From: Paraburkholderia azotifigens
GTDB taxonomy: Bacteria; Pseudomonadota; Gammaproteobacteria; Burkholderiales; Burkholderiaceae
Direction of reading: 5' to 3'
DNA: 64,000 bases
NCBI RefSeq assembly: GCF_007995085.1
Contig: NZ_VOQS01000003.1
Span: 2,728,001-2,792,000 of the forward strand
Positions 6,801-55,049 of this stretch are shown one piece after another; within the stretch, counting starts at the first letter, position 1, and each line of letters opens with the position of its first letter. Below the pieces are notes generated by a model. That model did no database searches. It was given only the letters and a program-made list of their open reading frames with translations, and had not been told where the DNA came from. The position numbers and the translations under genes were made by a program.

Positions 6801-6814
6801 TTGATTGATATCAA
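6801..6814. promoter_or_regulatory. FNR/ANR box, perfect
   Basis: TTGAT-TGAT-ATCAA matches the FNR consensus at all ten positions. Its centre is 70 nt upstream of the BON gene start at 6737, a distance that fits a class II FNR promoter plus a short leader. Confidence 0.85.
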
Positions 6815-6994
6815 TAAACCTTGCATGGACTCACTCCGTCACCTTCCTCTAGAGATCAGAAAACGCATAGGCAGCATAAGAGCCGCATGGCCCCGTGCGC
6901 GCTGGCGTGCCGCGCACCGAAAGCGACCTCGAAACAGCAGCGGGTTTGGGGCGTCTTTATTCACCCATCTGTCTTCCCCGCGTCGGCAGCCGGA

Positions 6995-7432
6995 TCATGT
7001 CGACGTGACCGGGCAGGTCCCCGACAACTCGTTTTCCGTGTAACTGAAATACAGCACAGTCAGGCGGCTCGAATCGAGTATCCGAAATACATGCACGGTC
7101 CTGAAAATGGGATCCGTTGATGCGTCGAACACTTGAGCGCGTTGCGGCAGCTTGCCGTGCGTCTCCAGTTTGCCCACCTGATGACAGGACACTGCTGCAT
7201 CGGACGTGCGGGTGGCCGGCGCGTTATCACCCAAAGACCTTTCGTCTTCCGATTGGGAGACGTAGCAGGTCACGCCTCGTAGTAAAGGGTCGTCGAATGC
7301 GGAAATACTGATCTGCCCGCCATAGCGGTGCGAATGAGTTGCGATTCTCGCTAATTCCTCACCTTCAACCGGGAGGGCTACGAAGGTGGCGAGAATTGCC
7401 GAACTACAGAGTATTGCAAGACGATGCGCCAT
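6995..7432 (-). CDS. creA: CreA family periplasmic protein
   Basis: 145 residues. The first 25 are a signal peptide (MAHRLAILCSSAILATFVAL, cleavage near VEG-EE). The mature part has the CreA pattern: FDDPLLRGVTCYVSQSEDER, then AAVSCHQVGKL, then FRTVHVFRILDSSRLTVLYF. CreA proteins are conserved in proteobacteria but their role is unknown. ATG at 7432 is chosen because the signal peptide starts there and GGGAG lies upstream; the in-frame ATG at 7459 would add a polar lead. An FNR-like box lies about 100 nt upstream. Confidence 0.8.
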   Translation of the reverse strand: MAHRLAILCSSAILATFVALPVEGEELARIATHSHRYGGQISISAFDDPLLRGVTCYVSQSEDERSLGDNAPATRTSDAAVSCHQVGKLETHGKLPQRAQVFDASTDPIFRTVHVFRILDSSRLTVLYFSYTENELSGTCPVTST

Positions 7433-7528
7433 AATGTGTCTCCCGTTCCTGTACGACATGCCAGAACGAAAGCCATTGAAGGACGTCTGGCCGGTTAAGC
7501 CAGCTTAAGAGGCTGCATCTTTTAACGA

Positions 7529-7542
7529 TTGACCGATATCAA
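7529..7542. promoter_or_regulatory. FNR-type box upstream of creA
   Basis: TTGAC-CGAT-ATCAA, nine of ten consensus positions. The centre is 103 nt upstream of the CreA start at 7432. Confidence 0.65.
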
Positions 7543-7611
7543 CGGACAATCAAGCCCCGTCAGAACCTTTCGCGCAAAGCGCGCCCAATCGCAACGCGGT
7601 ATTGCAGGAAT

Positions 7612-9084
7612 TCAGGGGCTTCTCGTCTCAACAGCGGAGAGCGGCAGCAGAACGGTCAATGCGAAGCCTTGACCGGGAGCGGTCCGGACGGTTAGTTCGC
7701 CGCTCAAGGCCGCGACTCGTTCGCGCATACCCATCAAACCAAACGAGCCTGGAGACGGTCGCAAACCGTTCTGGCAACCGCGCCCATTGTCGACGATACG
7801 CACGACGCAATGCGGGTTGCTGCGCGCGATCTCCAGCGTCACCCGGCTCGCGCCGGCATGACGTGCCACGTTGGTCAACGCCTCCTGAACAATTCGAAAC
7901 ACGGCCGTGGAACTGTCATCGTTGAAGTCGATGTCGTCCGCGTCGATATGCTGAACGACGTAGATCGCGTATCGCGACGAAAACCGTTCTATGAACCACT
8001 CTATAGCTGGCAGCAGACCCAGATCGTCGAGCATGGCGGGGCGCAGGTCGGTCGCTATGCGTCGTACGGAAACGACCATCTGATCGATTAGCGCATAGAC
8101 GTTGCTCATATCGATGCTTCCCGTCGTCGGGTCGACATTTCCGGCAAGACTGCAATTTTTCGCGCATTCGATTTTTAGCGCCGCCAGTTGCTGGCCGAAG
8201 TCGTCATGCAGTTCGCGTGCAATCCGGGTTTTTTCCTCCTCGCGGGCGCGCTGGATGTTCGCCGAAAGCCGCTTCAGTTCTTCTTGCGATGCCCGCAGCG
8301 CTTCGTCGGCCAGTCGACGCTCCGTGACGTCGATAATCCATCCGACCATGCGGTAGGCTTCTCCGGACTCATTCCACAGTGCCTGGCCTCTCGCGTGTAT
8401 CCAACGGTATTCATCCGTTTTTGTGCGTATGCGGTATTCGATTTCATAGGCGCATCTTTGCGCGAGGTGTTCCGCGAGTTGTGTCCTGACTCGTTCGACG
8501 TCGTCGGGATGTATCAGATCGAGGACAAGTTGGTGGTCGTTGGGCAGTTCGTGCACCTCGTACCCCACGATTTCCCTGAATTGGGGCGACAGATAGACTG
8601 CACCTGTCTGTGGATTCCAATCCCACAGTCCGGCGCTTGCGCCCCTCACTGCCAGCTGGAATCGCTCCTCGCTTTCCTTCAGCGCTATCGCGATCCGATG
8701 GCGCTCTATCGCATAGCGTATGGCGCGGCCGAGCTCCGACGAACTGATGTCCCGCTTCGACAGATAGTCCTGTGCGCCTTCCTGAATAGCCCTCAATCCC
8801 ACCGACATATCTTCCAGTCCGGTCAGCACCAGTACGGGCAGTTGGGCCGCATGCTGCTGCAACGTTCTGAACGTGCCGATTCCTTGTGCGTCGGGCAACC
8901 CGAGGTCCAGGAGCACGATATCGAATTGACTCGACTGAATCTTGCTGCATGCGTCCGACAACAGGGTCGCATGGATCAGCCGATGCTGGAAATCCAGCAC
9001 ATCAGACAGTGCTTCCTTGATCAGCAAAGCGTCCGTGGGGCTGTCCTCGACGAGCAGGATTCGGACTTCTGGCAGCTCGTTCAT
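7612..9084 (-). CDS. Hybrid sensor: receiver-PAS-HisKA_3 histidine kinase (NarX/DegS-like catalytic part)
   Basis: 490 residues. It begins with a receiver domain (1-125) whose phospho-acceptor is Asp60 in FDIVLLDLGLPD, with Lys110 in YLSKRD. A PAS domain follows (about 137-257, ending VGWIIDVTERRLADEALRAS). Then comes a HisKA_3 dimerisation domain with His293 in IARELHDDFGQQLAALK and a HATPase_c domain with EALTNVARHAGAS and VDNGRG. Kinases of this class normally phosphorylate NarL/FixJ regulators; one lies at 14328. Its ATG overlaps the stop of the receiver gene upstream by 4 nt, so the two are translationally coupled. No haem or cysteine sensor motif is visible. Confidence 0.9.
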   Translation of the reverse strand: MNELPEVRILLVEDSPTDALLIKEALSDVLDFQHRLIHATLLSDACSKIQSSQFDIVLLDLGLPDAQGIGTFRTLQQHAAQLPVLVLTGLEDMSVGLRAIQEGAQDYLSKRDISSSELGRAIRYAIERHRIAIALKESEERFQLAVRGASAGLWDWNPQTGAVYLSPQFREIVGYEVHELPNDHQLVLDLIHPDDVERVRTQLAEHLAQRCAYEIEYRIRTKTDEYRWIHARGQALWNESGEAYRMVGWIIDVTERRLADEALRASQEELKRLSANIQRAREEEKTRIARELHDDFGQQLAALKIECAKNCSLAGNVDPTTGSIDMSNVYALIDQMVVSVRRIATDLRPAMLDDLGLLPAIEWFIERFSSRYAIYVVQHIDADDIDFNDDSSTAVFRIVQEALTNVARHAGASRVTLEIARSNPHCVVRIVDNGRGCQNGLRPSPGSFGLMGMRERVAALSGELTVRTAPGQGFALTVLLPLSAVETRSP

Positions 9085-9533
9085 GATCTGGCGGAGGGCA
9101 GAGTCACCACGCCAAACCAGAACTCGCTGATTCTGCGTACAACCTCTATAAATCGGTTGAAGTCGACTGGCTTGGTGATATAGCAGTTCGCATGCAGTCC
9201 ATATGTCCTCGCCACATCTTCTTCCGATTTGGAAGTCGTCAACACGACGACGGGGATGTTCATCAGTTCGGGATCTGCCTTCAGTTCCTGGAGAACTTCG
9301 CGGCCACTCTTTTTAGGAAGGTTGAGATCGAGAATGATCAATCCGGGGCGAGGTGCGTTGCCATGCTTTCCTTCGCGCCTCAGGAATTCCATCGCCGCGA
9401 CCCCATCTTCGGCGACATGCAACGGATTGAGCAACTTGTAGTAATCGAACGCTTCACGCGTAATCATGACGTCAGTCGGGCTATCCTCAACGAGAAGGAT
9501 ATGGATCAGATCGTCGGCGGTCTGGGTATGCAT
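9081..9533 (-). CDS. Single-domain response regulator (CheY/Rcp1-like)
   Basis: 150 residues, a lone receiver with no output domain. Acidic pocket ILLVEDSPTD, phospho-acceptor Asp69 in LIILDLNLPKKSG, conserved Thr in VVVLTTSKSEED and Lys in CYITKPVDF. The LPKKSG and CYITKPVDF features are those of the Rcp1-type receivers that partner bacteriophytochrome and PAS kinases. It sits between two kinases on one transcript: 3 nt after the stop of the upstream PAS kinase, and overlapping the start of the downstream hybrid kinase. It probably relays phosphate between them. Confidence 0.9.
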   Translation of the reverse strand: MHTQTADDLIHILLVEDSPTDVMITREAFDYYKLLNPLHVAEDGVAAMEFLRREGKHGNAPRPGLIILDLNLPKKSGREVLQELKADPELMNIPVVVLTTSKSEEDVARTYGLHANCYITKPVDFNRFIEVVRRISEFWFGVVTLPSARS

Positions 9534-9536
9534 GAA

Positions 9537-11047
9537 CTACCCCCCCGAGTTGTGCTGTGACGGGATACGGTCTTCCGTTCCCGCGTGAAGCGTGAAGAAG
9601 ACTGTCGTGCCGTTGCCCGGTTCGGACTCGACCCAGATGCGGCCTCCGTGCTGCTCGACGATACGCTTGCATAGCGCAAGGCCGATCCCTGTCCCCGGGT
9701 AGTCGGCCCGGGAATGAAGACGCTGAAAAATCATGAATATGCGGTCGAAGTATTGCGCGTCGATGCCGATTCCATTGTCCTTCACCGAAATCACCCAACT
9801 GTCGCCTTCACGCGTTGCAACGACGTCGACGCAGACAGCCCGATCGGCCTGCCGGAACTTGACCGCATTGCCGATCAGATTCTGAAAGAGCAGTGCGATT
9901 TGCGTCGGAATCGCCATGACGGAAGGCAGTGCCCCCGAGTGATCTGCGCACCGGACTCGTGCAGCACGACGCTCAAGCTTTTCAGCGCCATGTCGAGTGC
10001 GTCGGCACATTCGGTCAATTGCGGAATTGCGCCTGATCGTCCGACCCGGGAATACGAGAGCAAGTCGTCAATCAGCTTTTGCATCCGCGTGGCACCATCC
10101 ACGGCATGCATGATGAACTCATCTGCACGTGCGTCGAGCTGCCCTTGATAGCGGCGCTGGAGCAGCTGAAGCGGGCCCGCGACGGCACGTAACGGTTCCT
10201 GAAGATCGTGGGACGCCACGTACGCAAACTGTTCGAGATCCTGGTTCGAGCGCGCAAGCTCTTCCGTCCTGCGGATGAGTTCCTGCTCGGCGCGCTTTCT
10301 CTCCGAGATGTCGACAATGGCGGCAATCACGAAGTTTTCGTTGGAGGTGCGCACGGGGTTGAGACCGATCTCCACAGGAAACTCCATACCGTCCTGACGC
10401 CGGCCGTACAGGTCACGCCCCATGCCCATCGGGCGTGGTTTCAGATCATGCAGATAGGCGGACCGGGACACCTGATGGCCTGTCCGAAAGCGTTCCGGCA
10501 CAAGCGTTTCGATGGACTTCCCGAACAACTGGTCGCGACGGTAACCGAACAGATTTTCGGTCTGCGCATTCACGAGGACGATCTTTCCTTCCTGGTCCAC
10601 CATCACCATCGCATTGGGCGCTGCTTCCACCACTTGCCGGAAGCGCTCCTCCAGACGTCTGCGTTCGGTGATATCGACGATGGCGGCCAGTACGAATATG
10701 CCCTCGTTCGTCGTAACCGGGTTCAGCCCGATTTCGACGGGAACTTCGGTACCGTCCTTTCGTAGCGCAAAAAGGTCGCGGCCCGTCCCCATCGGTCTGC
10801 TGCTAAGGTTGCCGTAGAACATGTTGCGATAGTCGGGATGCGCGCCGCGCAGACGCTCGGGCACCAGCCTGTCGACACTGCTCCCGACGAGTTCGTCGCG
10901 CGGATAGCCGAACAGCCTTTCCGCCTGCGCGTTGACTAGAACGATCAGACCGTCCCGGTCGGCCATGACCATCGCGTTGGGCGCAGCTTCCACGACTTGC
11001 CGGAAGAGTTCGTGAGTCAGGCTGCTTAACTGCTTGTACGGCTCCAT
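9537..11047 (-). pseudogene. PAS-PAS histidine kinase, interrupted by a one-base frameshift
   Basis: The combined product would be about 503 residues. Residues 15-130 and 136-251 are two near-identical PAS domains, followed by HisKA with His280 in FAYVASHDLQEPLRAVAG. The HATPase part ([30 protein letters not shown]) lies in the next frame. The break is at the C-run 9932-9936: one extra base (six instead of five) restores a continuous reading ...[19 protein letters not shown] at 11047 has GGAG 5 nt upstream; an in-frame ATG at 11131 is weaker. It may be a real pseudogene, a sequencing slip or a slippage site. It is the first gene of the kinase-receiver-kinase operon. Confidence 0.8.
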
Positions 11048-11400
11048 TCGATCTCCGTCGTTTAAAGAAGCAACCAGCACGTCGACGCTGCCTGGCCGCG
11101 GCGCCGCTCGTGCCACGGGGCGGTAGCTCATTTATAGCCTACGCACATACGAAATATGATCGCTCGTTTCCGCTTCGTTGTGTGCTGTCGTCACAGCTTC
11201 GCCTCGCCAGAGAGGACATTCGGGTTTTCCCTTTCCCGCGGCGGCCGTACGAGGGGGAGCCCGGAACCGCCATGCCCTTGTGAGCGTGGTCGAAGCGATT
11301 GATACAAGTCAACGACGACAGTTCTGTGCACGCCATGATGTCTGGGTGGCGTGCGTGGCTCGCATGGCGCGCTGAAAGTCGGCATCGAACGGAGGCGAAG
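11048..11400. other. Divergent intergenic region, kinase operon / hibernation factor
   Basis: 353 nt between the kinase ATG and the hibernation-factor ATG. It holds one FNR-type box (11299-11312) nearer the plus-strand gene. I see no further open frame with coding character. Confidence 0.6.
11299..11312. promoter_or_regulatory. FNR-type box upstream of the hibernation factor gene
   Basis: TTGAT-ACAA-GTCAA, nine of ten consensus positions. The centre is 96 nt upstream of the ATG at 11401. Confidence 0.7.
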
Positions 11401-11721
11401 ATGGGTATTGGCATGCAGATCGTCTACCTGGGCTTCTGTGGGACGGCGCGACTGGAAGGCGAGGCTGCCGCGCAACTGGTACGGCTGGAACGCTACAGCG
11501 GGCTGCTTTCAAATTGCCATCTGGCAATCGAACAGGTGCATTCAGCATCGGCCAGGCCGAGCTACGACGTCCGCCTCGATCTGATCACTCGCACGCGCGA
11601 CTTCAAACCCATCGAACATTGTTCAAGCGAAGACGCGGAACAGGCGGTCCGCTGCGCGTTCGACGCTGCGGAAAGGGAACTTCAGGCGGCCGAGAATGCG
11701 GCGAAGCATCGGCGGCAATGA
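11401..11721 (+). CDS. Ribosome-associated hibernation factor family protein (HPF/RaiA-like)
   Basis: 106 residues with a single S30AE-type fold: a first strand (MQIVYLGFCG), a helix (EGEAAAQLVRLERYSGLLS), then strands NCHLAIEQVHS and YDVRLDLITR and a final helix (DAEQAVRCAFDAAERELQ). This is the order seen in HPF, RaiA and the old sigma-54 modulation family. Such proteins sit in the decoding centre of stalled ribosomes and protect them in stationary or anoxic cells. It lacks the C-terminal dimerisation domain of long HPF. ATG at 11401 has GGAGG 6-7 nt upstream. An FNR box precedes it. The similarity is by pattern; confidence moderate. Confidence 0.7.
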   Translation: MGIGMQIVYLGFCGTARLEGEAAAQLVRLERYSGLLSNCHLAIEQVHSASARPSYDVRLDLITRTRDFKPIEHCSSEDAEQAVRCAFDAAERELQAAENAAKHRRQ

Positions 11722-12173: not shown

Positions 12174-13205
12174 TCAGTCGAGAATGGTCGACAAAGATCG
12201 TCTCGGCGAATGGTCGACGTGCGGACCGCGGCCCATACGCAGCAGCAGCTGCGGTATCGCATCGATGTTCAGCAGCGCTGCGAGCGCTTCTCTCAGCGAC
12301 GTGACTTCGATAGGCTGATTGAGGTACGAGGCGGTCACTCCCCTCGACGCCGCGAGCAGCAGCATGCGTTCGAGCGCCTGGCCGGTCGCCAGCCAGGCCT
12401 CGCGGTCGTCGCGTACCGTTGCGATGCCGACGAACAGCGGCGACCCTTCGACAAGCCGCTGATGCGTGGCCGGGGCGCCGACACCGACGTCGAACACGCG
12501 AACGACCGACGTGACCAGCGGCGCCGCGATATCAAGCAGCCCGCCGACAGCCGCGCCGTACGCGGGCATACCGTCGTTCCGGCGGCTCGAATGAATCCAG
12601 CTCGCAAGCTCTCTGCGAAACCGTGCGTCGGCAAATTGCGCGGAGTCCGCCTCGGCGATCAACTGGGCGATCGCCTGACGCGCGGTCTCCGCGTCCACGC
12701 AGGTCGCGATGGCGCCTTCCGCATCGCAGGCCGCGACCAGTTCCGTTTGCAGTTGCGGATCGACGGGTTCGTTGGCGAATGGCGCGCGGGTTGTGACGCG
12801 GGTCGTCAATGCACTGAACAGAGTGGCGAGTTCCGCGTCGAGATGCCCGTCTCGCGAGACACGCAGCTGCACGACGATATCGGGGTCGAACTCGGAGGGG
12901 AACACGGTGATTGCATAGGACAGCCCGAAATAGCTCAATGCGACTCGCAGGTTAAGCACGGCTGCACCACAACTTATGAGCAGTTCACGATCAAACGGAT
13001 CGACAACGGGCAACGCCCGCGTCCGGTCCGCGCACACCTGGACCGTAGAGCCGTCGACGATGAACCGCCAGGGCTGTGTGTTGTGATTGGAGGGGGCGAG
13101 AATGGCGTACTGAAGTGCAAATCGCAACTGTTGTTCAAGCGACGCACGAGCATCGAAGTCCGTCTCGTTCAGCTCCCATGCGCGGAGGGTTATCGCGTTG
13201 TTCAT
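12174..13205 (-). CDS. Acg-family nitroreductase-fold flavoprotein
   Basis: 343 residues, longer than ordinary nitroreductases, matching the two-lobed Acg family. Landmarks are LQYAILAPSNHNTQPWRFIV (residues about 29-48, the FMN-site signature of Acg), ISCGAAVLNLRVAL and the C-terminal RMGRGPHVDHSPRR. Acg is a DosR-regulated protein in Mycobacterium tuberculosis and is thought to sequester FMN. ATG at 13205 has AAGGAA upstream; an in-frame ATG at 13265 would add a polar 20 residues. An FNR-type box lies 77 nt upstream. Confidence 0.85.
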   Translation of the reverse strand: MNNAITLRAWELNETDFDARASLEQQLRFALQYAILAPSNHNTQPWRFIVDGSTVQVCADRTRALPVVDPFDRELLISCGAAVLNLRVALSYFGLSYAITVFPSEFDPDIVVQLRVSRDGHLDAELATLFSALTTRVTTRAPFANEPVDPQLQTELVAACDAEGAIATCVDAETARQAIAQLIAEADSAQFADARFRRELASWIHSSRRNDGMPAYGAAVGGLLDIAAPLVTSVVRVFDVGVGAPATHQRLVEGSPLFVGIATVRDDREAWLATGQALERMLLLAASRGVTASYLNQPIEVTSLREALAALLNIDAIPQLLLRMGRGPHVDHSPRRSLSTILD

Positions 13206-13275
13206 GTCAGATATTCCTTGGCCCGTGCGACGATGGCGCTGTTCGCATTCATCGTCGCATGTCATGGCAACTCAT

Positions 13276-13289
13276 CTTTGAGACAAATC
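13276..13289. promoter_or_regulatory. FNR-type box upstream of the Acg-like gene
   Basis: TTGAG-ACAA-ATCAA, nine of ten consensus positions. The centre is 77 nt upstream of the start at 13205 and 84 nt after the fnr-like gene's stop. Confidence 0.7.
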
Positions 13290-13372
13290 AAGGTCTTGAT
13301 TGACACCATCAGCCCGTGCGCCTCTCGTCTCTCGTGCCACTGAACCGGCAGCGTCCGTTTACCGTCGTGCGC

Positions 13373-14158
13373 TCAGACCTTCGCGAGGCGCTCGGGGTCG
13401 ACGATCCGGACCGTCTTGCCGTTTGCTCGAACGAGATGCTCGCGCTGAAACTTCGAAAACATGCGGCTTACGGTTTCGAGCTTCATTCCGAGGTAACAAC
13501 CGATTTCCTCGCGTGTCATGCGCAGATTGAACTCGGCGGCCGAGAATCCGCGCGTCTTGAAGCGCCGGGAGAGATTGAGAAGAAACGAAGCTACGCGCTG
13601 TTCTGCCGACATGGTGCCGAGCAGCATCATCTGCACGGACTCACGCACGATTTCGCCGCTCATCATCTGATAGATGTGATGCTGCATCGACTTTACCTCG
13701 CGGCAGATGATCTCGAGTTGCGCGAACGGAATAATGCAGACAACGCTGTCCTCGAGCGCGATCGCATCGCAGTTGTGCTGGCCGGCGCAGACGCCGTCGA
13801 ACCCGAGCGCGTCGCCCGCGATCTCGAAGCCCGTCACATGCTCGCGACCGTCGCGGTGCATGACGACCGTTTTGAACGAGCCGGCTCGTATCGCGTAGAT
13901 GCTCTTGAAATGGTCGCCGGCACGATACAGCGTGTCGCCGCGTTTAACGGCCCTCGTCGTGCAGATGACTGCGTCGAGTTTCGACAGATCGTCTGCGCTC
14001 AGATCGGCCGGCATGCAGATGGAGCGCATCGAACACGACGAGCAGCGCGTCGTGGCCGGGCGCGTCGGGTTGCACGGCTCGACGGGCCGAATCGGAATAA
14101 TCTCGGCAGTCGCGTGTTCCGGGACGTGACTGGAAGCCAGCGTGTTTGCGTCAAACAT
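13373..14158 (-). CDS. fnr: FNR/ANR-type oxygen-responsive transcription factor
   Basis: 261 residues of the CRP-FNR superfamily. N-terminal cysteines 39, 42 and 48 form CX2CX5C, and Cys141 in SVVCIIPF aligns with E. coli FNR Cys122, so all four [4Fe-4S] ligands are present. A cyclic-nucleotide-binding-like barrel follows (LYRAGDHFKSIYAIRAGSFK). The recognition helix MKLETVSRMFSKFQ carries Glu228, Ser231 and Arg232, the residues FNR uses to read TTGAT. Extra cysteines at 124 and 130 are unusual. ATG at 14158 has GAGGAG upstream. It is the obvious controller of the 20 FNR-type boxes found in this window. Confidence 0.93.
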   Translation of the reverse strand: MFDANTLASSHVPEHATAEIIPIRPVEPCNPTRPATTRCSSCSMRSICMPADLSADDLSKLDAVICTTRAVKRGDTLYRAGDHFKSIYAIRAGSFKTVVMHRDGREHVTGFEIAGDALGFDGVCAGQHNCDAIALEDSVVCIIPFAQLEIICREVKSMQHHIYQMMSGEIVRESVQMMLLGTMSAEQRVASFLLNLSRRFKTRGFSAAEFNLRMTREEIGCYLGMKLETVSRMFSKFQREHLVRANGKTVRIVDPERLAKV

Positions 14159-14203
14159 GTTTGTCTCCTCAACCCTCGTCTGCGCGCGCATGTGCGCGGC
14201 GCT

Positions 14204-14327: not shown

Positions 14328-14972
14328 CTATAACTCGTCGTCATCGACGAGCTTGTAACGAATCGCATAACGCACGAGCGCGTTCTCATTTGGCAACTGC
14401 ATTTTCTCGAGCACGCGCGTTTTGTGGGTGCTGACGGTCTTGACGCTCACACATAGTTCGTGGGCGATCTCCGTAATGCTCTGACCGGATACGATTCGTC
14501 TGAAGACATCGAACTCCCGATCCGAAAGACGTTGATGCGGTAACGCTTCCGCGGGCTCGTTGAGGGTTTGGGCGAAGCGTTCAGCCATTGCCAGGCTGAT
14601 GTACACGCCGCCACCGGCTATCTTTGTGACCGCGTTGACGAGTTCCCCACTCGCGCTTTCCTTCGTCAGATAGCCGGCCGCGCCCGCCTTGAATGCGCGC
14701 ACCGCGTACTGCTGCTCAGCGTGCATCGTCAGCACGAGGATGCGCAGCGCGGGTTGCTCGTCCTTGATCTGCTTGATGAGTTCGATGCCGTTGCGACCGG
14801 GCATGGTCAGGTCCAGAACCAGCACGTGCGCTTGCGTGGAGCGAATGAGCGCGATGGTGGTCGCGCCATCCCACGCTTCGCCGGCCACCTCGAAGCCGCT
14901 TGCGTTCTGAAGTATGTGGCGCAAGCCGTCGCGTACGAGTGCGTGGTCGTCCGCCAACAGTACCTTGATCAT
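14328..14972 (-). CDS. NarL/FixJ-family response regulator
   Basis: 214 residues. The receiver domain holds phospho-acceptor Asp54 in HVLVLDLTMPGRNG, with Lys in GYLTKESASG. The LuxR-type DNA-binding domain runs over about 148-208 (LSDREFDVFRRIVSGQSITE, then LCVSVKTVSTHKTRVLEKMQ). Such regulators pair with HisKA_3 kinases; the hybrid kinase at 7612 is the best candidate partner in the window. ATG at 14972 is chosen because the receiver begins there and AGGAAG lies upstream. It is a single-gene unit next to the fnr-like gene. Confidence 0.92.
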   Translation of the reverse strand: MIKVLLADDHALVRDGLRHILQNASGFEVAGEAWDGATTIALIRSTQAHVLVLDLTMPGRNGIELIKQIKDEQPALRILVLTMHAEQQYAVRAFKAGAAGYLTKESASGELVNAVTKIAGGGVYISLAMAERFAQTLNEPAEALPHQRLSDREFDVFRRIVSGQSITEIAHELCVSVKTVSTHKTRVLEKMQLPNENALVRYAIRYKLVDDDEL

Positions 14973-15293
14973 GGTTGCGTTTCTTCCTGTCTGACAGATT
15001 GCAGGGGGAAACTTGACCGTTTTTGCAAAATTGCGGTCTGTCGCGCCGATCGGGCATTGGGCGGGACAAAGCATCGATATGTTCCGATTCTACGCGTTTG
15101 CATGTCACGCGCGTGACCCTAAATAATTTACTTTTTGTGCGCTTACATAAAAAATGGCTCGCGTGCCGTATTTGCGGGACCAGCGTCCGGTTGACCTGAG
15201 TCAATCGGTGACGTCGAGACAGGAACACACTGCCTTTCATGCGCATCGATACCCGTTTCCAGGTGGCCGACGCATCACGACGGGAGGTTGATC
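14973..15293. other. Divergent intergenic region, NarL-type regulator / UspA
   Basis: 321 nt. It contains an AT-rich stretch (15118-15155) that could hold a promoter and one FNR-type box at 15191-15204. No coding frame with gene-like character is seen. Confidence 0.5.
15191..15204. promoter_or_regulatory. FNR-type box upstream of a UspA gene
   Basis: TTGAC-CTGA-GTCAA, a perfect inverted repeat with eight of ten consensus positions. The centre is 96 nt upstream of the ATG at 15294. Confidence 0.65.
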
Positions 15294-15764
15294 ATGTATG
15301 ACCGGATTCTTGTTGCGCTTGACGACAGCGCGAGCGCGCAGATGGCGCTCGGTGAAGCGGTCAGGCTCGCGAAACTCTCTCGCGGCGTGGTGTATGCGCT
15401 GTCGGTCGTGGACCGCGGCCGATGGCCCGCGGAGGCAACCGCACGGTACGACTTCGAACCCGAACCGTCGGCCGCGTCGAACGCCGCCACGCGCATATTC
15501 GACGAGGCGAACGCGCTGTTTCGGGAGTCGGGCGTCAGTGGGAAGACGCGCGCAATCGATGCATATGGTGAAACTGTCCCGGAAGTGCTCGCTCGCGCGG
15601 CGGAAGAATGCGATGCCGATATCATCGTGATGGGTACGCACGGAAGGCGGGGCGCGCAGCGGTTTTTCCTCGGCAGCGTCGCGGAGTCGCTCGTGCGTTC
15701 GTCGCAGAGGCCTGTCCTGCTGGTCCGGCATGATGGTTCAGGCGACGCTCAAGCGAAAGCGTGA
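15294..15764 (+). CDS. Universal stress protein, single UspA domain
   Basis: 156 residues, one Usp fold. It begins MYDRILVALDDSASAQMALG. Near the end it carries the ATP-binding motif GTHGRRGAQRFFLGSVAE (G-2X-G-9X-G-S), so it belongs to the ATP-binding Usp branch, which forms dimers in the cytosol under starvation or anoxia. ATG at 15294 has GGGAGG upstream; a TTG 6 nt earlier is in frame but less likely. First of six usp genes in the window, and transcribed alone. Confidence 0.9.
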   Translation: MYDRILVALDDSASAQMALGEAVRLAKLSRGVVYALSVVDRGRWPAEATARYDFEPEPSAASNAATRIFDEANALFRESGVSGKTRAIDAYGETVPEVLARAAEECDADIIVMGTHGRRGAQRFFLGSVAESLVRSSQRPVLLVRHDGSGDAQAKA

Positions 15765-18204: not shown

Positions 18205-18218
18205 TTGATGCATGTCAA
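18205..18218. promoter_or_regulatory. FNR-type box shared by two divergent operons
   Basis: TTGAT-GCAT-GTCAA, nine of ten consensus positions. It lies almost exactly midway: 87 nt from the usp start at 18124 and 86 nt from the plus-strand start at 18298. Confidence 0.75.
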
Positions 18219-20252: not shown

Positions 20253-21278
20253 TCAATCGAGCGCCATCACGATCCGCCCATCCACTGTCCCTTCGCGGAG
20301 CGCACCGAACACCGCGTTGATGTTCTCGAGCCGGTCGCGATGAATGTGCGCTCGAACGCTGCCCTGCGCGGCGAAGTCGAGCGACTCCTGCAAATCGCGC
20401 CGCGTCCCCACGATCGAGCCGCGTATCGTAATGCCGTTAAGGACCGTCGAAAAAATCGGCAGCGGAAAATCGCCCGGCGGCAAACCGTTGAGTGCGACCG
20501 TGCCGCCGCGTCGGACCATGCCAAGCGCTTGCGCGAATGCACTGCGCGACACGGCAGTCACCAGCACGCCATGCGCGCCGCCAATTTCTTTCTGGATAAA
20601 AGCGGCCGGATCCGTGGTTTTCGCATTGACGACAAGCTTCGCGCCCAGATTGCGTGCAAGGTCGAGTTTCGCGTCGGAGATGTCGACTGCAACCACGTGC
20701 AATCCCATTGCAATCGCATACTGCACGGCGACGTGCCCAAGCCCACCGATACCCGAAATCGCCAGCCACTGGCCCGGGCGCGTGTCCGTCACGCGAATGC
20801 CTTTGTAGACGGTCACGCCGGCGCAGAGAATCGGCGCGATTTCATCGAACGCGACAGTGTCGGGAAGATGTCCGACATAGTTGGGATCGGCCAGCACGTA
20901 TTCGGCATATCCGCCGTTGACCGAGTACCCCGTGTTCTTCTGGTCGTGACAGAGCGTTTCCCATCCGCTCAGACAGTGTTCGCACCGGCCGCAGGCCGTA
21001 TAGAGCCAGGGCACGCCGACGCGGTCGCCTTCCTTTACGCCCTTCACGCCGCTGCCAACAGCGGCGACGTAACCGACGCCCTCATGTCCGGGAATGAAAG
21101 GCAGCGTCGGTTTGACGGGCCAATCGCCGTCGGCGGCATGAAGATCGGTATGGCAGACGCCCGACGCCTTGATGTTCACCAGAATCTGGCCCGGACCGAC
21201 ATCAGGCACGGCGACTTCTTCGATGCTCAGCGGCTTGCCGAATTCTCGTACGACAGCGGCTTTCATATGGCGGGTCAT
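20253..21278 (-). CDS. adhP: Zinc-dependent alcohol dehydrogenase (AdhP/AdhA type)
   Basis: 341 residues, medium-chain dehydrogenase. Catalytic zinc ligands Cys42 ([14 protein letters not shown]) and His65-Glu66 (GHEGVGYV), with a third Cys in [11 protein letters not shown]. Structural zinc cysteines at 96, 99, 102 and 110. NAD loop [13 protein letters not shown]. It interconverts primary alcohols and aldehydes with NAD(H). In oxygen-poor cells it would regenerate NAD by reducing acetaldehyde (inference). A perfect FNR box lies 63 nt upstream, the closest of all in the window. Confidence 0.93.
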
Positions 21279-21334: not shown

Positions 21335-21348
21335 TTGATTCAGATCAA
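21335..21348. promoter_or_regulatory. FNR/ANR box, perfect
   Basis: TTGAT-TCAG-ATCAA matches the consensus at all ten positions. The centre is 63 nt upstream of the alcohol dehydrogenase start at 21278. Confidence 0.85.
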
Positions 21349-22077: not shown

Positions 22078-22091
22078 TTGATCCCCGTCAA
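22078..22091. promoter_or_regulatory. FNR-type box upstream of the LemA-like gene
   Basis: TTGAT-CCCC-GTCAA, nine of ten consensus positions. The centre is 68 nt upstream of the start at 22016. Confidence 0.7.
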
Positions 22092-22157: not shown

Positions 22158-22171
22158 TTGATCAGGATCAG
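22158..22171. promoter_or_regulatory. FNR-type box upstream of the N-ATPase operon
   Basis: TTGAT-CAGG-ATCAG, nine of ten consensus positions. The centre is 69 nt upstream of the GTG at 22234. Confidence 0.65.
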
Positions 22172-22200
22172 CTTTGAGCGGGCGCTCGCCGTTATCTTGA

Positions 22201-23703
<1,503 letters not shown>

Positions 23704-23716
23704 AGGATGCATCGCC

Positions 23717-24148
23717 ATGACGGACGACTCGCTCAGCCTGACCATCGCAACGCCCGCGCGCGTGGTCGTCGACGGATTGGCGATCGTCTCGTTGCGCGCG
23801 GAAGACGCGAGCGGCGGGTTCGGCATTCACGTCGGACATGTGGATATGGTGACGCTTCTCGGCGCGTCTGTCGTGCGGTGGGCGACGCCGGACGGCACCG
23901 CGCATTTTTGCGCCGTGGACGGCGGCGTGCTGATCGTGTCGAACGGCGCGACCGTGTCGATCGCATGCAGGGAAGCCGTGCTGGGCGAATCGTTGCAAGG
24001 GCTGGAGGCGCAAGTGCACGGCACGCGTGAAACGCAACTCGATGCGATGCGGCGCGCGCGTGTCGAGCAGACGCGCCTTCATGCTCGTGCTGTGCGACAG
24101 ATGTTGCGTTACCTGCGTCCACAGGCGGCGCGTGGAGTGCCCCAATGA
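23717..24148 (+). CDS. atpC: N-type ATPase subunit epsilon
   Basis: 143 residues. The N-terminal beta-sandwich typical of epsilon is clear (LSLTIATPARVVVDGLAIVS, GGFGIHVGHVDMVTLL, CAVDGGVLIVSNG), followed by a short helical tail. It links the rotor to the catalytic head. It starts 13 nt after atpD and its TGA overlaps the ATG of the next gene (ATGA). Identified by position and the N-terminal pattern. Confidence 0.85.
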   Translation: MTDDSLSLTIATPARVVVDGLAIVSLRAEDASGGFGIHVGHVDMVTLLGASVVRWATPDGTAHFCAVDGGVLIVSNGATVSIACREAVLGESLQGLEAQVHGTRETQLDAMRRARVEQTRLHARAVRQMLRYLRPQAARGVPQ

Positions 24149-24459
24149 CAAGCCAGCGCAAGCGCGATGCCCCGGCGGACGATCGCGTCGCGAAAGCGGC
24201 ACGGCGCGCTTCGGATCGCGACGCAATGGGACGCGAAGACCGGGAGCCGTCGCTGGCCGCACGGCTTGGGCAGATCGGCATTCTCGGCTGGACGATCGTT
24301 TTGCCGACGCTCGTCTGTCTCGCGCTGGGTCGATGGCTGGACCGGCTGATGGGAACGCGCGTGTTTTTCTCGGCGCCGTTTCTGATGATCGGGGCGGCGA
24401 TCGGTTTCTGGTCGGCATGGAAATGGATGCACCGGCAGCAAAGGAGAGATCGTGACTAA
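24145..24459 (+). CDS. atpQ: N-type ATPase accessory membrane subunit AtpQ (AtpI-like)
   Basis: 104 residues: about 40 hydrophilic residues, then two membrane helices (LGWTIVLPTLVCLALGRWLD and FLMIGAAIGFWSAWKWMHRQ). This is the AtpI-like protein usually third in N-ATPase operons, thought to help c-ring assembly or Mg2+ handling. It overlaps atpC by 4 nt and atpR by 8 nt. The call rests on operon position plus topology. Confidence 0.8.
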   Translation: MTSQRKRDAPADDRVAKAARRASDRDAMGREDREPSLAARLGQIGILGWTIVLPTLVCLALGRWLDRLMGTRVFFSAPFLMIGAAIGFWSAWKWMHRQQRRDRD

Positions 24460-25682: not shown

Positions 25683-25688
25683 TGCGCG

Positions 25689-36948: not shown

Positions 36949-36962
36949 TTGATGCAAGTCAA
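36949..36962. promoter_or_regulatory. FNR-type box for the minus-strand unknown gene
   Basis: TTGAT-GCAA-GTCAA, nine of ten consensus positions. The centre is 94 nt upstream of the start at 36861; a second box lies 45 bp away for the divergent gene. Confidence 0.7.
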
Positions 36963-36993: not shown

Positions 36994-37007
36994 TTGACAT
37001 GCATCAA
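36994..37007. promoter_or_regulatory. FNR-type box for the DUF1488 gene
   Basis: TTGAC-ATGC-ATCAA, nine of ten consensus positions. The centre is 71 nt upstream of the ATG at 37072. Confidence 0.7.
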
Positions 37008-40319: not shown

Positions 40320-40331
40320 CGTCTACGCTCC

Positions 40332-42017
<1,686 letters not shown>

Positions 42018-42047
42018 CTATTTAAGTCGCCGCGTACGGGAAACCGA

Positions 42048-42061
42048 TTGATCTGCGTCAA
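42048..42061. promoter_or_regulatory. FNR-type box between groEL and ftsH
   Basis: TTGAT-CTGC-GTCAA, nine of ten consensus positions. It lies 100 nt from the groEL start (41954) and 76 nt from the ftsH start (42131), so it could serve both. Confidence 0.7.
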
Positions 42062-42130
42062 CGGGGCAGGGGCGATGCCGGCAGAACATCGTGAAACCGG
42101 ACACGCCGCTTCCCATCGTCCCGAGAGACC

Positions 42131-44116
42131 ATGATGCCCACACAGCGTCCTTCGCGCGATGCGCGCAAATCGCCCCGATGGTTCGACCTGTTGAGTATCG
42201 CGCTCACGGTGTTCTTCGTGATGGTCGTCGTGTTGCAGTTCCTGACGGCGCAAGGCATGACGACGGAAATTGCGTATAGCGACTTCCAGCGACTCGTTGC
42301 CGCAGGGCAAGTCGCCGACCTGGAAGTGACGCCTACGCGCATCACGGGAACGCTCAAGATGCCGGGTGCCGCTTCACTGCTGCCTGCCTCCGACGCAACA
42401 GCCGCCAACAGGAACGGCGAGCCGTCGCGCTTCACGACGATGCGCGTCGCCGATGAGCGTCTGGCTGACTCGCTCACGGCAGCGGGCATCCGCTATTCGG
42501 GTGCTGTCGACAGTGCGTGGCCCGGCATGCTTTTGTCCTGGGCCGTTCCCCTGCTGGCGATGTTCTTCGTGTGGAATCTGTTATGGCGGCGCACGGGCGG
42601 CTTGCAGCAGTACACGAAGATGGGCCGCGGCAATGCGCATATTCTCGTGCAAAACGAAACAGGGATTACCTTCGACGACATCGCGGGTATCGATGAAGCC
42701 AAAGCCGAGCTTCGCCAGATCGTCGCGTTTTTGCGCGACGCCGAACGCTATCGCCGTCTTGGGGGCAAGATCCCGAAGGGTGTGCTGATCGTCGGCGCAC
42801 CGGGCACGGGTAAGACGTTGCTCGCCAAGGCCGTGGCGGGTGAAGCGGGCGTGCCGTTCTATTCGGTGAGCGGCGCGGGCTTTGTCGAAATGTTCGTCGG
42901 CGTGGGCGCGGCCCGCGTCCGGGATCTTTTCGAGCAGGCGCAGGCCGAGGCGCCATGCATCATTTTTATCGACGAACTGGACGCGCTCGGCAAAGTGCGC
43001 GGAGCGGGCCTGACTTCCGGCAATGACGAACGCGAGCAGACGCTCAACCAGTTGCTCATCGAGATGGACGGTTTCAAATCGAATTCGGGCGTCATCATCA
43101 TGGCGGCGACGAACCGGCCCGAGACGCTCGACCCCGCGTTGCTGCGGCCCGGCCGCTTCGACAGGCATATCGCCATCGACAGGCCCGACCTCAACGGCCG
43201 CCGTCAGATTCTCGCGGTGCATACGCGCCACGTGAAACTGGCGAACGACGTCGATCTGAACGAACTGGCGTCGCGCACGCCGGGTTTCGTCGGCGCCGAC
43301 CTCGCGAATGTCGTCAACGAAGCCGCGCTGCATGCCGCCGAAGCCGACAAGCAGGCGGTCGATATGGCCGACTTCGACGAAGCGATCGATCGCGCGATGA
43401 CGGGCATGGAACGCAAGAGCCGCGTGATGAACGCGCAGGAAAAGATCACCATCGCGTATCACGAGGCCGGTCATGCGCTCGTCGCCCATAGCCGCAAGCA
43501 TTGCGACCCTGTCAAGAAAGTGTCGATCATTCCGCGCGGCGTAGCGGCGCTGGGTTATACGCAGCAGGTGCCGACGGAAGACCGCTATGTGCTGCGCGAA
43601 AGCGAACTGCTCGACCGGCTCGATGCGCTGCTTGGCGGCCGCGTCGCGGAGGAACTGGTCTTCGGCGATGTGTCGACCGGCGCGGAGAACGATCTCGATC
43701 GCGCGACGGCAATGGCCCGGCACATGGTAAGCCGTTACGGGATGAGCGAGCGCATCGGGCTGGCAACGATGAGCGAATCGCCGGGTCCTCTGGACCTGCC
43801 GGGACTCGGTGGCTGGCGCGGGACGTCTTGCAGCGACGACACGGCGCGTCTTGTCGACGAGGAAATCCGACGGATGCTCGACGATGCGCATGCACGTGTC
43901 AAAGCCACGCTCTCCACCCAGCGCGCGACGCTCGAACGTATCGCCCGGTTGCTGCTCGAGCGCGAAGTGCTCGATCACGAGATGCTGCAACGCGCGATCG
44001 ACGGTACGTCGAAGGCGGTACAGCAGGATGCACTTGCACCCACGGGCGCACCCACCGGCGCACCCACGGGCGCAAATATCGAAGCCGGAGAAGACGAGGA
44101 ATCGTGCTCGGGATGA
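42131..44116 (+). CDS. ftsH: FtsH-type membrane AAA protease, second copy
   Basis: 661 residues. Two membrane helices ([17 protein letters not shown] and [19 protein letters not shown]) flank a periplasmic part. The AAA domain has Walker A GAPGTGKT (222-229), Walker [12 protein letters not shown] and second region of homology [11 protein letters not shown]. Zinc-protease motif HEAGH at 444-448. The C-terminus carries a threefold PTGA repeat ([17 protein letters not shown]) not seen in housekeeping FtsH. It degrades misfolded or regulatory membrane and soluble proteins. Two adjacent ATGs (42131, 42134) are possible starts. It shares the FNR box with divergent groEL. Confidence 0.94.
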
Positions 44117-44160: not shown

Positions 44161-44174
44161 TTGACATGAATCAA
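44161..44174. promoter_or_regulatory. FNR-type box upstream of hsp20
   Basis: TTGAC-ATGA-ATCAA, nine of ten consensus positions. The centre is 159 nt upstream of the ATG at 44327, the longest spacing among the single-target boxes here. Confidence 0.65.
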
Positions 44175-44764: not shown

Positions 44765-44774
44765 TGCGTGCACG

Positions 44775-44966: not shown

Positions 44967-45635
44967 TCAGTCTGCAAGAGAAGTCAGCGTCGTGCCCGGC
45001 GCGCCGATCGTCTGAGCAAGAATGGGGAGCTCGTCCTCATTCAGTTTCAGCGCGTCGCTCAGCAGACGGTGATTGATCCAGCCGCGCACGACGCAGCCCA
45101 GGCCTTCGGAGGCGCAGTACAGCGACACGTTCTGCGCCATGGCGCCTGTCGCGACAGCGGAAAAGATATCGCGCTGCTGTGGCGGCATGCCGAGCAGGCG
45201 CGACATGTTGACCACGTAGACCAGGTCCAGCGGCGCAGCGCCGACGAAGTCCTGGTAACCGGTCAGGTTGCGCGCATCGCTTGCATGTTTCAGGACGAGC
45301 CGGTGCGCGGGCGCATCGTACCGGTAGACACCGTTCGGCATCACGGCGTAGAGGTCGACTTCATTGAATGCGTTCGCCGATGGCGCGGTGCGCCCGCCTG
45401 TACGCGGCCGGTTGATGCCATCGGCGGCCCACAGCAGCGCGCCGAGCGTGGCGGATGGAAGCGGCGCATCGGAGAATTCGCGCGTGCTGGCGCGTAGCGC
45501 GAGGGCCTTCATCAGCGGCGCGCCCGAGGACATGTCGGGTTGCGGCAATTCGATAATGGCCGGGGTATCGCCCCGGGCGCGAGCCGGCGCACGACCGTGA
45601 GCGGGTTCGTACGTCAGCAGTTGCATGTCGGTCAT
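44967..45635 (-). CDS. SagB-type nitroreductase-fold oxidoreductase
   Basis: 222 residues, one FMN nitroreductase fold. Landmarks are LRASTREFSDAPLPSATLGA (the RxSxRxF start), LLWAADGINRPRTGGRTAPS (the SagB/ThcOx pattern), GAMAQNVSLYCASEGLGCVV, and a C-terminal TIGAPGT segment. It probably reduces quinones or nitro compounds, or has lost that role; there is no bacteriocin cluster nearby, so the SagB name reflects fold only. ATG at 45635 has AAGGAG upstream. An FNR-type box lies 93 nt upstream. Confidence 0.85.
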   Translation of the reverse strand: MTDMQLLTYEPAHGRAPARARGDTPAIIELPQPDMSSGAPLMKALALRASTREFSDAPLPSATLGALLWAADGINRPRTGGRTAPSANAFNEVDLYAVMPNGVYRYDAPAHRLVLKHASDARNLTGYQDFVGAAPLDLVYVVNMSRLLGMPPQQRDIFSAVATGAMAQNVSLYCASEGLGCVVRGWINHRLLSDALKLNEDELPILAQTIGAPGTTLTSLAD

Positions 45636-46016
45636 GATCGACTCCTTCGTGGATGGGTCGATGCATTCGCCTGGGCGTTGGTGCATCGCTTCCAGGATAG
45701 AGGCGGCCTGAAGTATGACCGTTGACTTCGGTCAATCGCATCGCGATAGATGGGCGGGACCCATAGCCGGTCACGGCGAGAGCGTCAATCATGCCGTCAG
45801 GCTGCGCGAAATGCACGAAATGCACGATACCCGCCGCCTTGCATGAATCGCCGGGCAACAGCGGGTCACGTTTTCTGGCTTTCTTGCAAAAAGGCCAGTA
45901 TCAGGTCGACGTCGGGAACTCGCGCATGCTTGATCTGCATCAGTCCCATCGTCCGCTCGTGGATCGATGCTTGTTCGTGGTGGCGCAAACCACGCTTCAA
46001 ATGGAGGAGATGCGTA
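45636..46016. other. Divergent intergenic region, nitroreductase / BON protein
   Basis: 381 nt. One FNR-type box at 45722-45735, a short direct repeat (GAAATGCAC twice, about 45808-45825) and a long leader to the BON gene. No convincing coding frame, although an open frame continuous with the BON gene exists upstream of its ATG. Confidence 0.5.
45722..45735. promoter_or_regulatory. FNR-type box upstream of the SagB-type gene
   Basis: TTGAC-TTCG-GTCAA, a perfect inverted repeat with eight of ten consensus positions. It is 93 nt from the nitroreductase start and 288 nt from the BON start on the other side. Confidence 0.65.
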
Positions 46017-50492: not shown

Positions 50493-50506
50493 TTGACTTG
50501 GGTCAA
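50493..50506. promoter_or_regulatory. FNR-type box upstream of the small membrane protein and P-type ATPase
   Basis: TTGAC-TTGG-GTCAA, a perfect inverted repeat with eight of ten consensus positions. The centre is 66 nt upstream of the ATG at 50566. Confidence 0.65.
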
Positions 50507-53216: not shown

Positions 53217-53246
53217 CGCCAGGGCGACAGAGAGGAGGGCGCGCTC

Positions 53247-53912: not shown

Positions 53913-53940
53913 CAACGGCGCCGCTGTGTCCCTCGTGCTG

Positions 53941-54903
53941 TCAGACCTTGGCGGGCATTGCTTCACGGTCGTGCACGAGCAATACAGGCGTATCGGCGAG
54001 ACGCACCGTGCGGGCCGCGACGCTGCCGACAAGCCAACGCTCGAAGCCGCGCCTGCCGTGAGTGCCGAGTACGAGCAGGTCGCCTTTCCAGTCCTGAACG
54101 TCCCGTAAGATCGTGTGGGGGATGTCGTCGCGGGTCGCATGCGTCTTGAGCAGCGCCGTCTCCATGTAGCGCCCCTGTTCGGCGCAGATGCGCGCTGCAC
54201 GTTCGAGTGCTGTGCAACCCTCTTCGAGATTCGCGCTTTCCATGATGCGGATGGCCTCGCCATCCATCACGTTGCTCGCACGGTCCACGACGAAGATCGC
54301 GCGCAACCGGCTGTCAGGCGTGGCCAGCTGAAGGCCCGTGCGCAACGCCGTGATCGAACACGCGCTGCCATCCATCGCAAACACCATTCGCTGGGCGGCC
54401 GCATCGGTTGCAACACGGCTGTCTTCAGGGACCAGCAGCAACGAGCAGCTCGCGCGGCGTGCAACGGGTTCGGACACCGTGCCTTCGACCCAGCGCAACA
54501 GGCCATGATGGTGCCGCATGCCCATCACGATCAGATCGGCGTTCCAGTCCGACGCGGTTTCAAGTAATGCGTCCGCCGTATTTCCGCGGTGAACGGAAAG
54601 GTCGATCAGGCCGAATTCCAGTTGCGTGCCTGCAAACATGGCTTCGATCCTGGCAAGCGCGGCGCGCGAATCGCCGACGATTTCGTCCCGTGCAGCGGCG
54701 AGAAAGTCTTGTGTGGTCGAGCCGAGCGGAAATAGCGTGCGCGGATTCTGCGCAACCGTGACGACCCTGATCGTCGCGCGTCCGGCGAACATCGTCTTCG
54801 CGTACTCGGCGGCACGCATCGTCGCTTCTGAGTCGTCGATCGCCAGCATGATGCGCTGGAGCGTGCGGCGGTCGGTTAGCTCCACGCTGGATGATTCCTC
54901 CAT
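53941..54903 (-). CDS. Universal stress protein, tandem Usp domains
   Basis: 320 residues, the longest usp of the window. The first domain reads QRIMLAIDDSEATMRAAEYA and MGMRHHHGLLRWVEGTVSEP. The second reads QRMVFAMDGSACSITALRTG and ends GTHGRRGFERWLVGSVAART, with the ATP loop intact. ATG at 54903 has GGAG 8 nt upstream. An FNR-type box lies 71 nt upstream and the gene is divergent from the BON operon. Confidence 0.9.
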   Translation of the reverse strand: MEESSSVELTDRRTLQRIMLAIDDSEATMRAAEYAKTMFAGRATIRVVTVAQNPRTLFPLGSTTQDFLAAARDEIVGDSRAALARIEAMFAGTQLEFGLIDLSVHRGNTADALLETASDWNADLIVMGMRHHHGLLRWVEGTVSEPVARRASCSLLLVPEDSRVATDAAAQRMVFAMDGSACSITALRTGLQLATPDSRLRAIFVVDRASNVMDGEAIRIMESANLEEGCTALERAARICAEQGRYMETALLKTHATRDDIPHTILRDVQDWKGDLLVLGTHGRRGFERWLVGSVAARTVRLADTPVLLVHDREAMPAKV

Positions 54904-54967
54904 GATGTTTCTCCGTATCGGGTGAGAGGGCGACGAATCGATTCTCCGTCGAAAAGAGCGCGTTCGC

Positions 54968-54981
54968 TTGATCGTCGTCAA
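54968..54981. promoter_or_regulatory. FNR-type box upstream of a tandem usp gene
   Basis: TTGAT-CGTC-GTCAA, nine of ten consensus positions. The centre is 71 nt upstream of the start at 54903. Confidence 0.7.
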
Positions 54982-55035
54982 GCGAGCGTCGACGCGGCCT
55001 TGTCGTCCGATGCAGATCGCGGCACAGCGACCTGA

Positions 55036-55049
55036 TTGACTTCGATCAA
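55036..55049. promoter_or_regulatory. FNR-type box upstream of the BON-pps-pfkB operon
   Basis: TTGAC-TTCG-ATCAA, nine of ten consensus positions. The centre is 91 nt upstream of the ATG at 55134. Last box of the island. Confidence 0.75.

Follow-up and report, generated by a model that had tools for sequence, protein, structure and literature searches.

The stretch of DNA analysed here (the window) comprises 64,000 nucleotides of the 9.70-Mb, five-contig genome of Paraburkholderia azotifigens (C3:2728001-2792000, where C3 is contig NZ_VOQS01000003.1). It carries a gene for an FNR-type regulator amid many copies of the FNR box, and this arrangement raises the question of which protein reads the boxes and what kind of unit they form. 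In the absence of oxygen the [4Fe-4S] cluster of FNR persists, and the protein dimerises and activates RNA polymerase from about -41.5; in a class II FNR promoter the centre of the box lies near -41.5. An earlier note on this DNA had described 20 such sites packed into 48 kb as a self-contained regulon around its own regulator. We conclude with considerable confidence that the window holds most of an lxa-type accessory island for survival at low oxygen, in which about 20 FNR boxes, mostly in class II position, precede survival genes that would be activated by FNR in anoxia, and in which the boxes are probably read in trans by FNR paralogues.

The strict pattern TTGAYNNNNRTCAA occurs 16 times in the window, compared to 0.15 expected from 100 shuffles (the largest shuffle gave 2). 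These boxes span positions 6801 to 55049, and the Poisson probability of at least 16 strict boxes in 48 kb is 1.3e-20 before correction for the choice of window. When one mismatch was allowed, 24 matches were found versus 4.2 expected. One of the eight additional matches (6805) overlaps the strict box at 6801. The other seven were checked for a -10 element at a spacer of 21 bp, which was present at 13278, 22158, 29800 and 31284 and absent at 45930, 50416 and 58740. Together, the 16 strict boxes and the four near-matches with a well-placed -10 make the total of 20 sites sound. Among these 20, the half-sites TTGAT (10) and ATCAA (7) were as counted before, but TTGAC occurs 7 times rather than 8 and GTCAA 12 times rather than 11.

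The position of the boxes relative to the -10 element argues more strongly for class II promoters than the distance to the start codon does. The whole genome contains 80 strict boxes (16 for the reversed pattern), 55 of which lie in seven of eight regions extracted from C3 and C5 and 25 of which are scattered outside them. The regions, which total 402 kb or about 4% of the genome, were picked for boxes and not for -10 elements; the eighth, C3:1578-1596 kb around an fnr gene, has no box. Among the 55 island boxes, TAnnnT followed the box at exactly 21 bp in 25 of 110 orientations, compared to 0-3 of 110 at each of 47 other offsets. Counted per box, 24 of 55 island boxes had TAnnnT at this spacer and 0 of 15 isolated boxes did. 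The looser hexamer nAnnnT was present at spacer 21 for 45 of the 55 (0-11 at other spacings from 8 to 39) and for 1 of the 15. The isolated boxes checked for nAnnnT (L001-L015) are 15 of the 25 outside the extracted regions; two of the ten left out, C5:676062 and C5:1743700, carry TAnnnT. In the window itself, 13 of the 16 strict boxes have nAnnnT at 21, that at 45722 has TATCCT at 22, and those at 6801 and 42048 have neither. The same spacing was seen at 40 named fnr loci, where 141 of the 160 strict boxes within 10 kb of fnr have nAnnnT at 21 (0-30 at other spacings) and the reversed pattern gave no boxes at all.

Because the hexamer starts 28.5 bp from the centre of the box, this fixed spacing puts the centre at -41.5 or -40.5 by hexamer numbering, and the class II reading of the earlier note is upheld on these grounds. 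Its own argument, a distance of 63 to 110 nt from box centre to start codon, is a weak one; we found mostly 60-115 nt to the likely start, with the choice of start a matter of judgement, and exceptions at 44161 (about 75 or 160 nt, depending on the hsp20 start), 31351 (46 or 110 nt) and 50493.

The boxes are also conserved. Alignment with PGU19 was possible for 13 of the 16 strict boxes and with P. caribensis MWAP64 for 10, and a strict box was kept in all 23 pairs. The eight fixed core positions had no changes in 184 aligned positions compared to 23.8% in the flanks (p 2e-22). Even the variable T/C and A/G half positions changed only once in 46, versus transition rates of 14% across the four bases of the spacer (p 0.008) and 12% across the flanks (p 0.019). 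At the level of aligned sequence, these figures show conservation of the boxes by selection. The boxes at 7529, 21335 and 50493 had no alignable counterpart among the seven sequences used. It had been suggested that the prevalence of the GTCAA half tunes affinity among targets. The T/C and A/G halves combine freely, and no link between half-site type and the quality of the -10 element was detected over 231 oriented promoters (p 0.12 and 0.24). Affinity tuning may still occur despite this null result, since the half type is kept between species and the box of the N-type ATPase operon, described below, keeps a deviant last base.

The boxes and the principal genes of the window are as follows, with the spacer given as the number of bp between the box and the -10 hexamer.

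6801-6814, minus strand: strict FNR box without a -10 at spacer 21, probably serving the BON gene 5988-6737.
7529-7542, minus strand: strict box, TAAGCT at spacer 21, facing a creA-like gene.
7612-11131, minus strand: two-component genes (Pfam), namely a hybrid kinase with response regulator, PAS and HisKA_3 domains, a response regulator, and a PAS-PAS histidine kinase in two frames.
11299-11312, plus strand: strict box, CATGAT at spacer 21, facing 11401-11721.
12174-13265, minus strand: flavin mononucleotide (FMN) oxidoreductase of the Acg/Rv3131 family, downstream of fnr (NF047509, 322 bits, cut-off 199).
13278-13291, minus strand: near-match box, GACGAT at spacer 21, facing the Acg-type gene; kept in both of two aligned relatives.
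13373-14191, minus strand: fnr, an FNR-type regulator with four ligand cysteines and the ETVSR recognition motif.
14328-15074, minus strand: NarL/FixJ-type response regulator (Pfam Response_reg and GerE), on the same strand as fnr and upstream of it.
15191-15204, plus strand: strict box, CACACT at spacer 21, facing the universal stress protein gene 15294-15764.
18205-18218, no strand assigned: strict box with a -10 on each side (TAGAGT, TAGACT), facing a pair of universal stress protein genes to the left, and 18298 and a short-chain dehydrogenase/reductase gene to the right.
21335-21348, minus strand: strict box, AACACT at spacer 21, facing the alcohol dehydrogenase gene 20253-21278.
22078-22091, minus strand: strict box, TACGCT at spacer 21, facing a lemA-like gene.
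22158-22198, plus strand: predicted promoter of the N-type ATPase operon, near-match box TTGATCAGGATCAG, 21 bp, TATCTT.
22234-28855, plus strand: N-type rotary ATPase operon, beta subunit first, AtpR present (Pfam).
29800-29813, plus strand: near-match box, TAGCCT at spacer 21, facing the ion channel gene 29922-30761.
31284-31297, minus strand: near-match box, TACAGT at spacer 21, facing the phasin gene 30779-31207; kept in three of three aligned relatives.
31351-31364, plus strand: strict box, GAAGAT at spacer 21, facing a universal stress protein gene.
36949-36962, minus strand: strict box, AACGAT at spacer 21, facing 36415-36861 (no Pfam match).
36994-37007, plus strand: strict box, TAATCT at spacer 21, facing the DUF1488 gene 37072-37347.
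42048-42061, no strand assigned: strict box between groEL-like (minus) and ftsH-like (plus) genes; no -10 at spacer 21.
44161-44174, plus strand: strict box, TACGCT at spacer 21, facing an hsp20 gene.
45722-45735, minus strand: strict box, TATCCT at spacer 22, facing the nitroreductase gene 44967-45635.
50493-50506, plus strand: strict box, TAGCTT at spacer 21, facing a P-type ATPase gene (end of the open reading frame at 53216; start uncertain).
54968-54981, minus strand: strict box, GAGAAT at spacer 21, facing the universal stress protein gene 53941-54903.
55036-55049, plus strand: strict box, TAGTCT at spacer 21, facing the BON gene 55134-55784.

The genes adjacent to boxes thus comprise five for universal stress proteins and those for Hsp20, the Acg/Rv3131-family oxidoreductase, a second nitroreductase, alcohol dehydrogenase, BON, LemA, DUF1488, phasin, ion channel, P-type ATPase, groEL-like and ftsH-like proteins. 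A polyhydroxybutyrate (PHB) synthase and a PHB depolymerase family protein are encoded amid the box-flanked genes, an ABC efflux system also lies inside the island, and phosphoenolpyruvate synthase and PfkB (58848-59852) are found just past the last box of the window. No tRNA genes were found in the window. Some details of individual loci were noted in passing. The PAS-PAS histidine kinase (9537-11131, minus strand) is split, with PAS and HisKA in 9875-11131 and HATPase_c in 9537-10010 in another frame; its P. caribensis counterpart is a single 629-aa frame, and the break here is either real or an assembly error. The small gene that follows the box at 11299 (11401-11721, plus strand) scores 20.7 bits for the S30AE ribosome hibernation family, a resemblance short of the Pfam cut-off of 23.7. 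The open reading frame of the P-type ATPase opens upstream of the box at 50493, its first Pfam domain begins at residue 138, and a small hydrophobic frame of about 34 codons, read from the DNA, directly follows the promoter of this box.

This gene set is of the lxa type: fnr clusters with genes for universal stress proteins, Hsp20 and PfkB and with FNR boxes, although PfkB lies beyond the last box. The lxa locus of Burkholderia cenocepacia (BCAM0275-BCAM0323) was compared through published descriptions. It contains the FNR BCAM0287, and an FNR-box-like motif accompanies many of its induced genes (PMC4505428); its named members include universal stress proteins, alpha-crystallin, phosphofructokinase and BCAM0287 (PMC4505428, PMC6127331, PMC9104464). 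All of these features are common to the two loci, and many gene families of the window recur in a B. stagnalis island with 13 strict boxes, so that the resemblance to lxa proposed earlier holds. Compared with lxa as described, what differs is that the island in the window includes an ABC efflux system as well as the N-type ATPase operon, and that this genome has several islands on two replicons. The mycobacterial DosR dormancy regulon also has Hsp20, universal stress proteins, an Acg-type oxidoreductase, a cation ATPase and PfkB (PMC3095998), a likeness to lxa already published (PMC6127331); control, however, is by the response regulator DosR there and by FNR boxes here.

The cluster does not end with the window. 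No strict boxes were found at 1-6800 or 55050-64000, as the earlier note had it for the flanks, but boxes resume 870 bp beyond the window end, at window-equivalent position 64871, and continue to 84244. These eight bring the local cluster to 24 boxes in 77 kb and lie near genes for acetyl-CoA synthetase, a CBS-BON protein, a PAS kinase, an amino acid permease and a Na/H exchanger. An equal density of sites elsewhere, which had been named as evidence against a dedicated cluster, was not found in the genome at large and was found in several other islands. Given the boxes beyond the window and the further islands on C3 and C5, the claim of unusual density holds, but its unit is a set of islands rather than one 48-kb regulon. 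The full promoter module (TTGAN6TCAA-N21-TANNNT) makes the same point: it occurs 31 times genome-wide and never in the reversed control, with 28 of the 31 in the extracted regions and none on C1. Class II regulons of this kind are known for FNR of Escherichia coli and ANR of Pseudomonas, with the same type of box, a four-cysteine sensor and the box centre near -41.5; what differs here is that accessory islands hold most of the class II sites, 28 of 31 modules falling in about 4% of the genome. A stretch of the window with the groEL-like gene and the box at 42048 (40326-42167) is 99.2% identical over 1843 bp to C5:766766-768608, which indicates that the islands shared DNA recently, by exchange or duplication. 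The hsp20 stretch is 91.8% identical to the C5 island.

In a survey of 144 genomes of the genus, those with an island-type fnr (best E <=1e-95; n=85) had a mean of 11.1 modules compared to 1.39 in those without (n=59), with 0.4 control matches in both (Mann-Whitney p 7e-20, kinship ignored). That genomes with island-type fnr are the main carriers of class II FNR promoters is apparently new. In one genome (G012), contigs C8, C34 and C41 bear runs of modules with near-identical promoters, as if an island had been copied, and there is an fnr on each. Plasmids carry similar gene sets together with fnr. Plasmid pOLGA1 of P. phytofirmans OLGA172 (271 kb, typed non-mobilizable) combines arginine deiminase genes with 11 strict boxes in a 42-kb stretch, and its atpD is preceded by a perfect box with TATCGT; P. 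graminis pPHS1_P, a 495-kb plasmid typed conjugative, has 6 boxes in 41 kb. This suggests that the stress regulon, regulator included, travels as islands, with one copy on a plasmid typed conjugative.

Which regulators could read these boxes? As stated in the earlier note, the FNR-like protein at 13373 is complete. Its residues C50, C53, C59 and C152 align with the cysteines of solved FNR chains, its recognition motif is ETVSR where the solved chains have ETISR, and it scores 236.2 bits against the NCBIfam Fnr model NF008365 (cut-off 228). The closest named relatives by fnr are Burkholderia sp. E7m39 (91%) and Paraburkholderia species. Examination of 20 of the 24 superfamily matches in the genome identified four proteins with ETVSR, three of which have all four cysteines; of the two further complete FNRs, one is encoded within another island (C5:1151989) and one in the region without boxes (C3:1585398). 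The fourth (C5:976888-977112, L059) lacks the third N-terminal cysteine (CKTCAMAELR) and may read the same boxes with an altered oxygen response or none. FNR-family genes are present in three of the seven box-bearing regions (the window, C5:1138-1158 kb and C5:948-988 kb). The orthologous island of P. caribensis MWAP64, for which one replicon of the strain was examined, carries no fnr along with its 12 strict boxes in 42 kb; the single fnr match (E 1e-40 or better) found on this replicon is situated about 200 kb from the island. With three complete FNRs in the genome and an island in P. caribensis that has boxes without fnr, reading in trans by several FNRs is a better model than reading by the resident FNR alone. 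Several four-cysteine FNRs in one cell are also found in Pseudomonas putida, where the O2 sensitivities of three FNRs have been measured biochemically (PMC4505428); in the present genome the comparison is one of sequences, and two complete copies sit within islands that bear boxes. As for fnr itself, no box with up to one mismatch lies between its start and the preceding gene, and the box at 15191 has no -10 towards the response regulator-fnr operon. On this basis the neighbouring two-component genes would be the ones to feed it.

In the N-type ATPase operon, AtpR scores 64.5 bits (cut-off 26) and the beta subunit comes first, as in other N-type ATPases; the difference is that here a conserved FNR class II promoter precedes the operon, within an island for survival at low oxygen. 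The beta subunit falls short of the NCBIfam model for the alternate F1F0 beta subunit (TIGR03305, 608.7 bits vs cut-off 752) and passes the general atpD model (TIGR01039, 614.6 vs 462.85). As to the coupling ion (Na+ or H+), the c subunit (about 25437-25682, plus strand, 81 aa) has carboxylates in both helices and the sequence IETMAIY, not the ESTxxY named in PMC6688271. Across the genus, 48 N-ATPase matches were found in 45 of the 144 genomes and promoters were read at 30 of the 48. A box with up to one mismatch and TAnnnT at spacer 21 was present at 25 of the 30 loci, compared to 0-1 at other spacings from 14 to 30 and none in a coding stretch; one of the other five has a spacer of 22 and four have no such promoter. 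The same last base deviates in 23 of the 25 boxes, in 19 of those to G. Island-type fnr was present in 43 of the 45 N-ATPase genomes versus 42 of 99 others (p 1e-10). Two genomes, G142 and G030, have an N-ATPase, 13 and 8 modules respectively, and no island-type fnr at the threshold used.

Outside the genus, Caballeronia SBC2 carries a strict box some 275 bp ahead of the segment that matches atpD, and TAAAGT lies at spacer 21 from it. In B. pyrrocinia LWK2, atpD is preceded by two strict boxes, neither with nAnnnT at spacer 20-22 towards it, and the N-ATPase loci of Methylosinus and Sphingobium have no such box. N-ATPases are described as always additional to an F-ATPase (PMC6688271) and their cellular functions as largely unexplored (PMC5376962); in Gluconobacter the Na+-ATP synthase operon rises 2-3 fold under oxygen limitation (PMC6191907). 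No link of N-ATPase with FNR in Burkholderiales was found in the literature among the matches listed, and the conserved class II promoter before the operon is apparently new.

A self-contained regulon, in which the resident FNR (13373-14191) alone reads the surrounding boxes and other FNRs do not, would explain why fnr lies inside the box cluster, why genomes with an island-type fnr have far more modules, and why 40 loci together have 160 strict boxes no more than 10 kb from such a gene. It fits poorly with two more complete FNRs that have an identical ETVSR motif, with the P. caribensis MWAP64 island, which keeps 10 of 10 aligned boxes in the absence of fnr, and with the other box islands of the genome, most of which have no fnr. 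We consider it unlikely, and this central claim of the earlier note is not sustained. Less likely still is that a FixK- or Dnr-type regulator or the neighbouring response regulator is the main reader and FNR is uninvolved. Similar boxes can be bound by CRP/FNR proteins that have no iron-sulphur cluster, fnr has a FixJ-type response regulator and kinases as neighbours, and the fourth ETVSR protein lacks one N-terminal cysteine; yet ETVSR occurs in only four of the superfamily proteins examined, three of them with all FNR ligands, and the box is a palindrome of the CRP/FNR kind rather than a site for a response regulator. Chance clustering of a short palindrome might account for the 25 scattered boxes, a number near the 16 of the reversed pattern, and single boxes may be due to chance. 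For the cluster as a whole we reject this explanation as wholly improbable on the strength of the fixed -10 spacing and the unchanged cores; the counts from shuffled sequence, and from the reversed pattern at the fnr loci, point the same way.

Some observations weigh against the reading we prefer, an accessory low-oxygen island read in trans by several FNRs. Ten of the 55 island boxes have no nAnnnT at spacer 21, including those at 6801, 42048 and 45722 in the window. Four genomes without an island-type fnr have at least 5 modules, and six with one have two or fewer. In B. thailandensis, universal stress protein genes fell in anoxic stationary cells, and oxygen limitation raised the ATP synthase of chromosome 1, not the operon of chromosome 2 (both in PMC3966863); judging from gene order, we infer that the chromosome 2 operon is N-type.

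If the island works as we propose, a fall in oxygen would allow [4Fe-4S] FNR to dimerise, bind the boxes and recruit RNA polymerase. The reader would be a pool of FNR paralogues and not the resident copy alone, and the resident fnr would receive input from the adjoining two-component genes. The N-ATPase would hydrolyse ATP as an ion pump, thereby holding the membrane gradient when respiration stops. Tentatively, and with somewhat less than even confidence, we extend this reading to the genus: its class II FNR regulon may be almost wholly accessory rather than part of the core genome, a survival kit for anoxia that is spread over several islands, partly borne on plasmids and equipped with its own oxygen sensor. 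The energetic centre of this kit may be the N-type ATPase. It would be a dedicated target of FNR, its box weakened yet conserved, and would spend ATP on pumping ions to maintain the gradient.

Islands of this kind are known from Burkholderia, and it is the spread over several islands and the link to the ATPase that are worth testing. The promoter rule (TTGA-N6-TCAA, 21 bp, TAnnnT), with 31 sites and none in the control, implies that the low-oxygen regulons of the family can be read from sequence. The results pose the question of how several FNR paralogues share one set of boxes. The predicted promoter places the N-ATPase under an oxygen sensor, which is directly testable, and if the genus-wide reading as an accessory kit is true, it would tell what N-ATPases are for in these bacteria.

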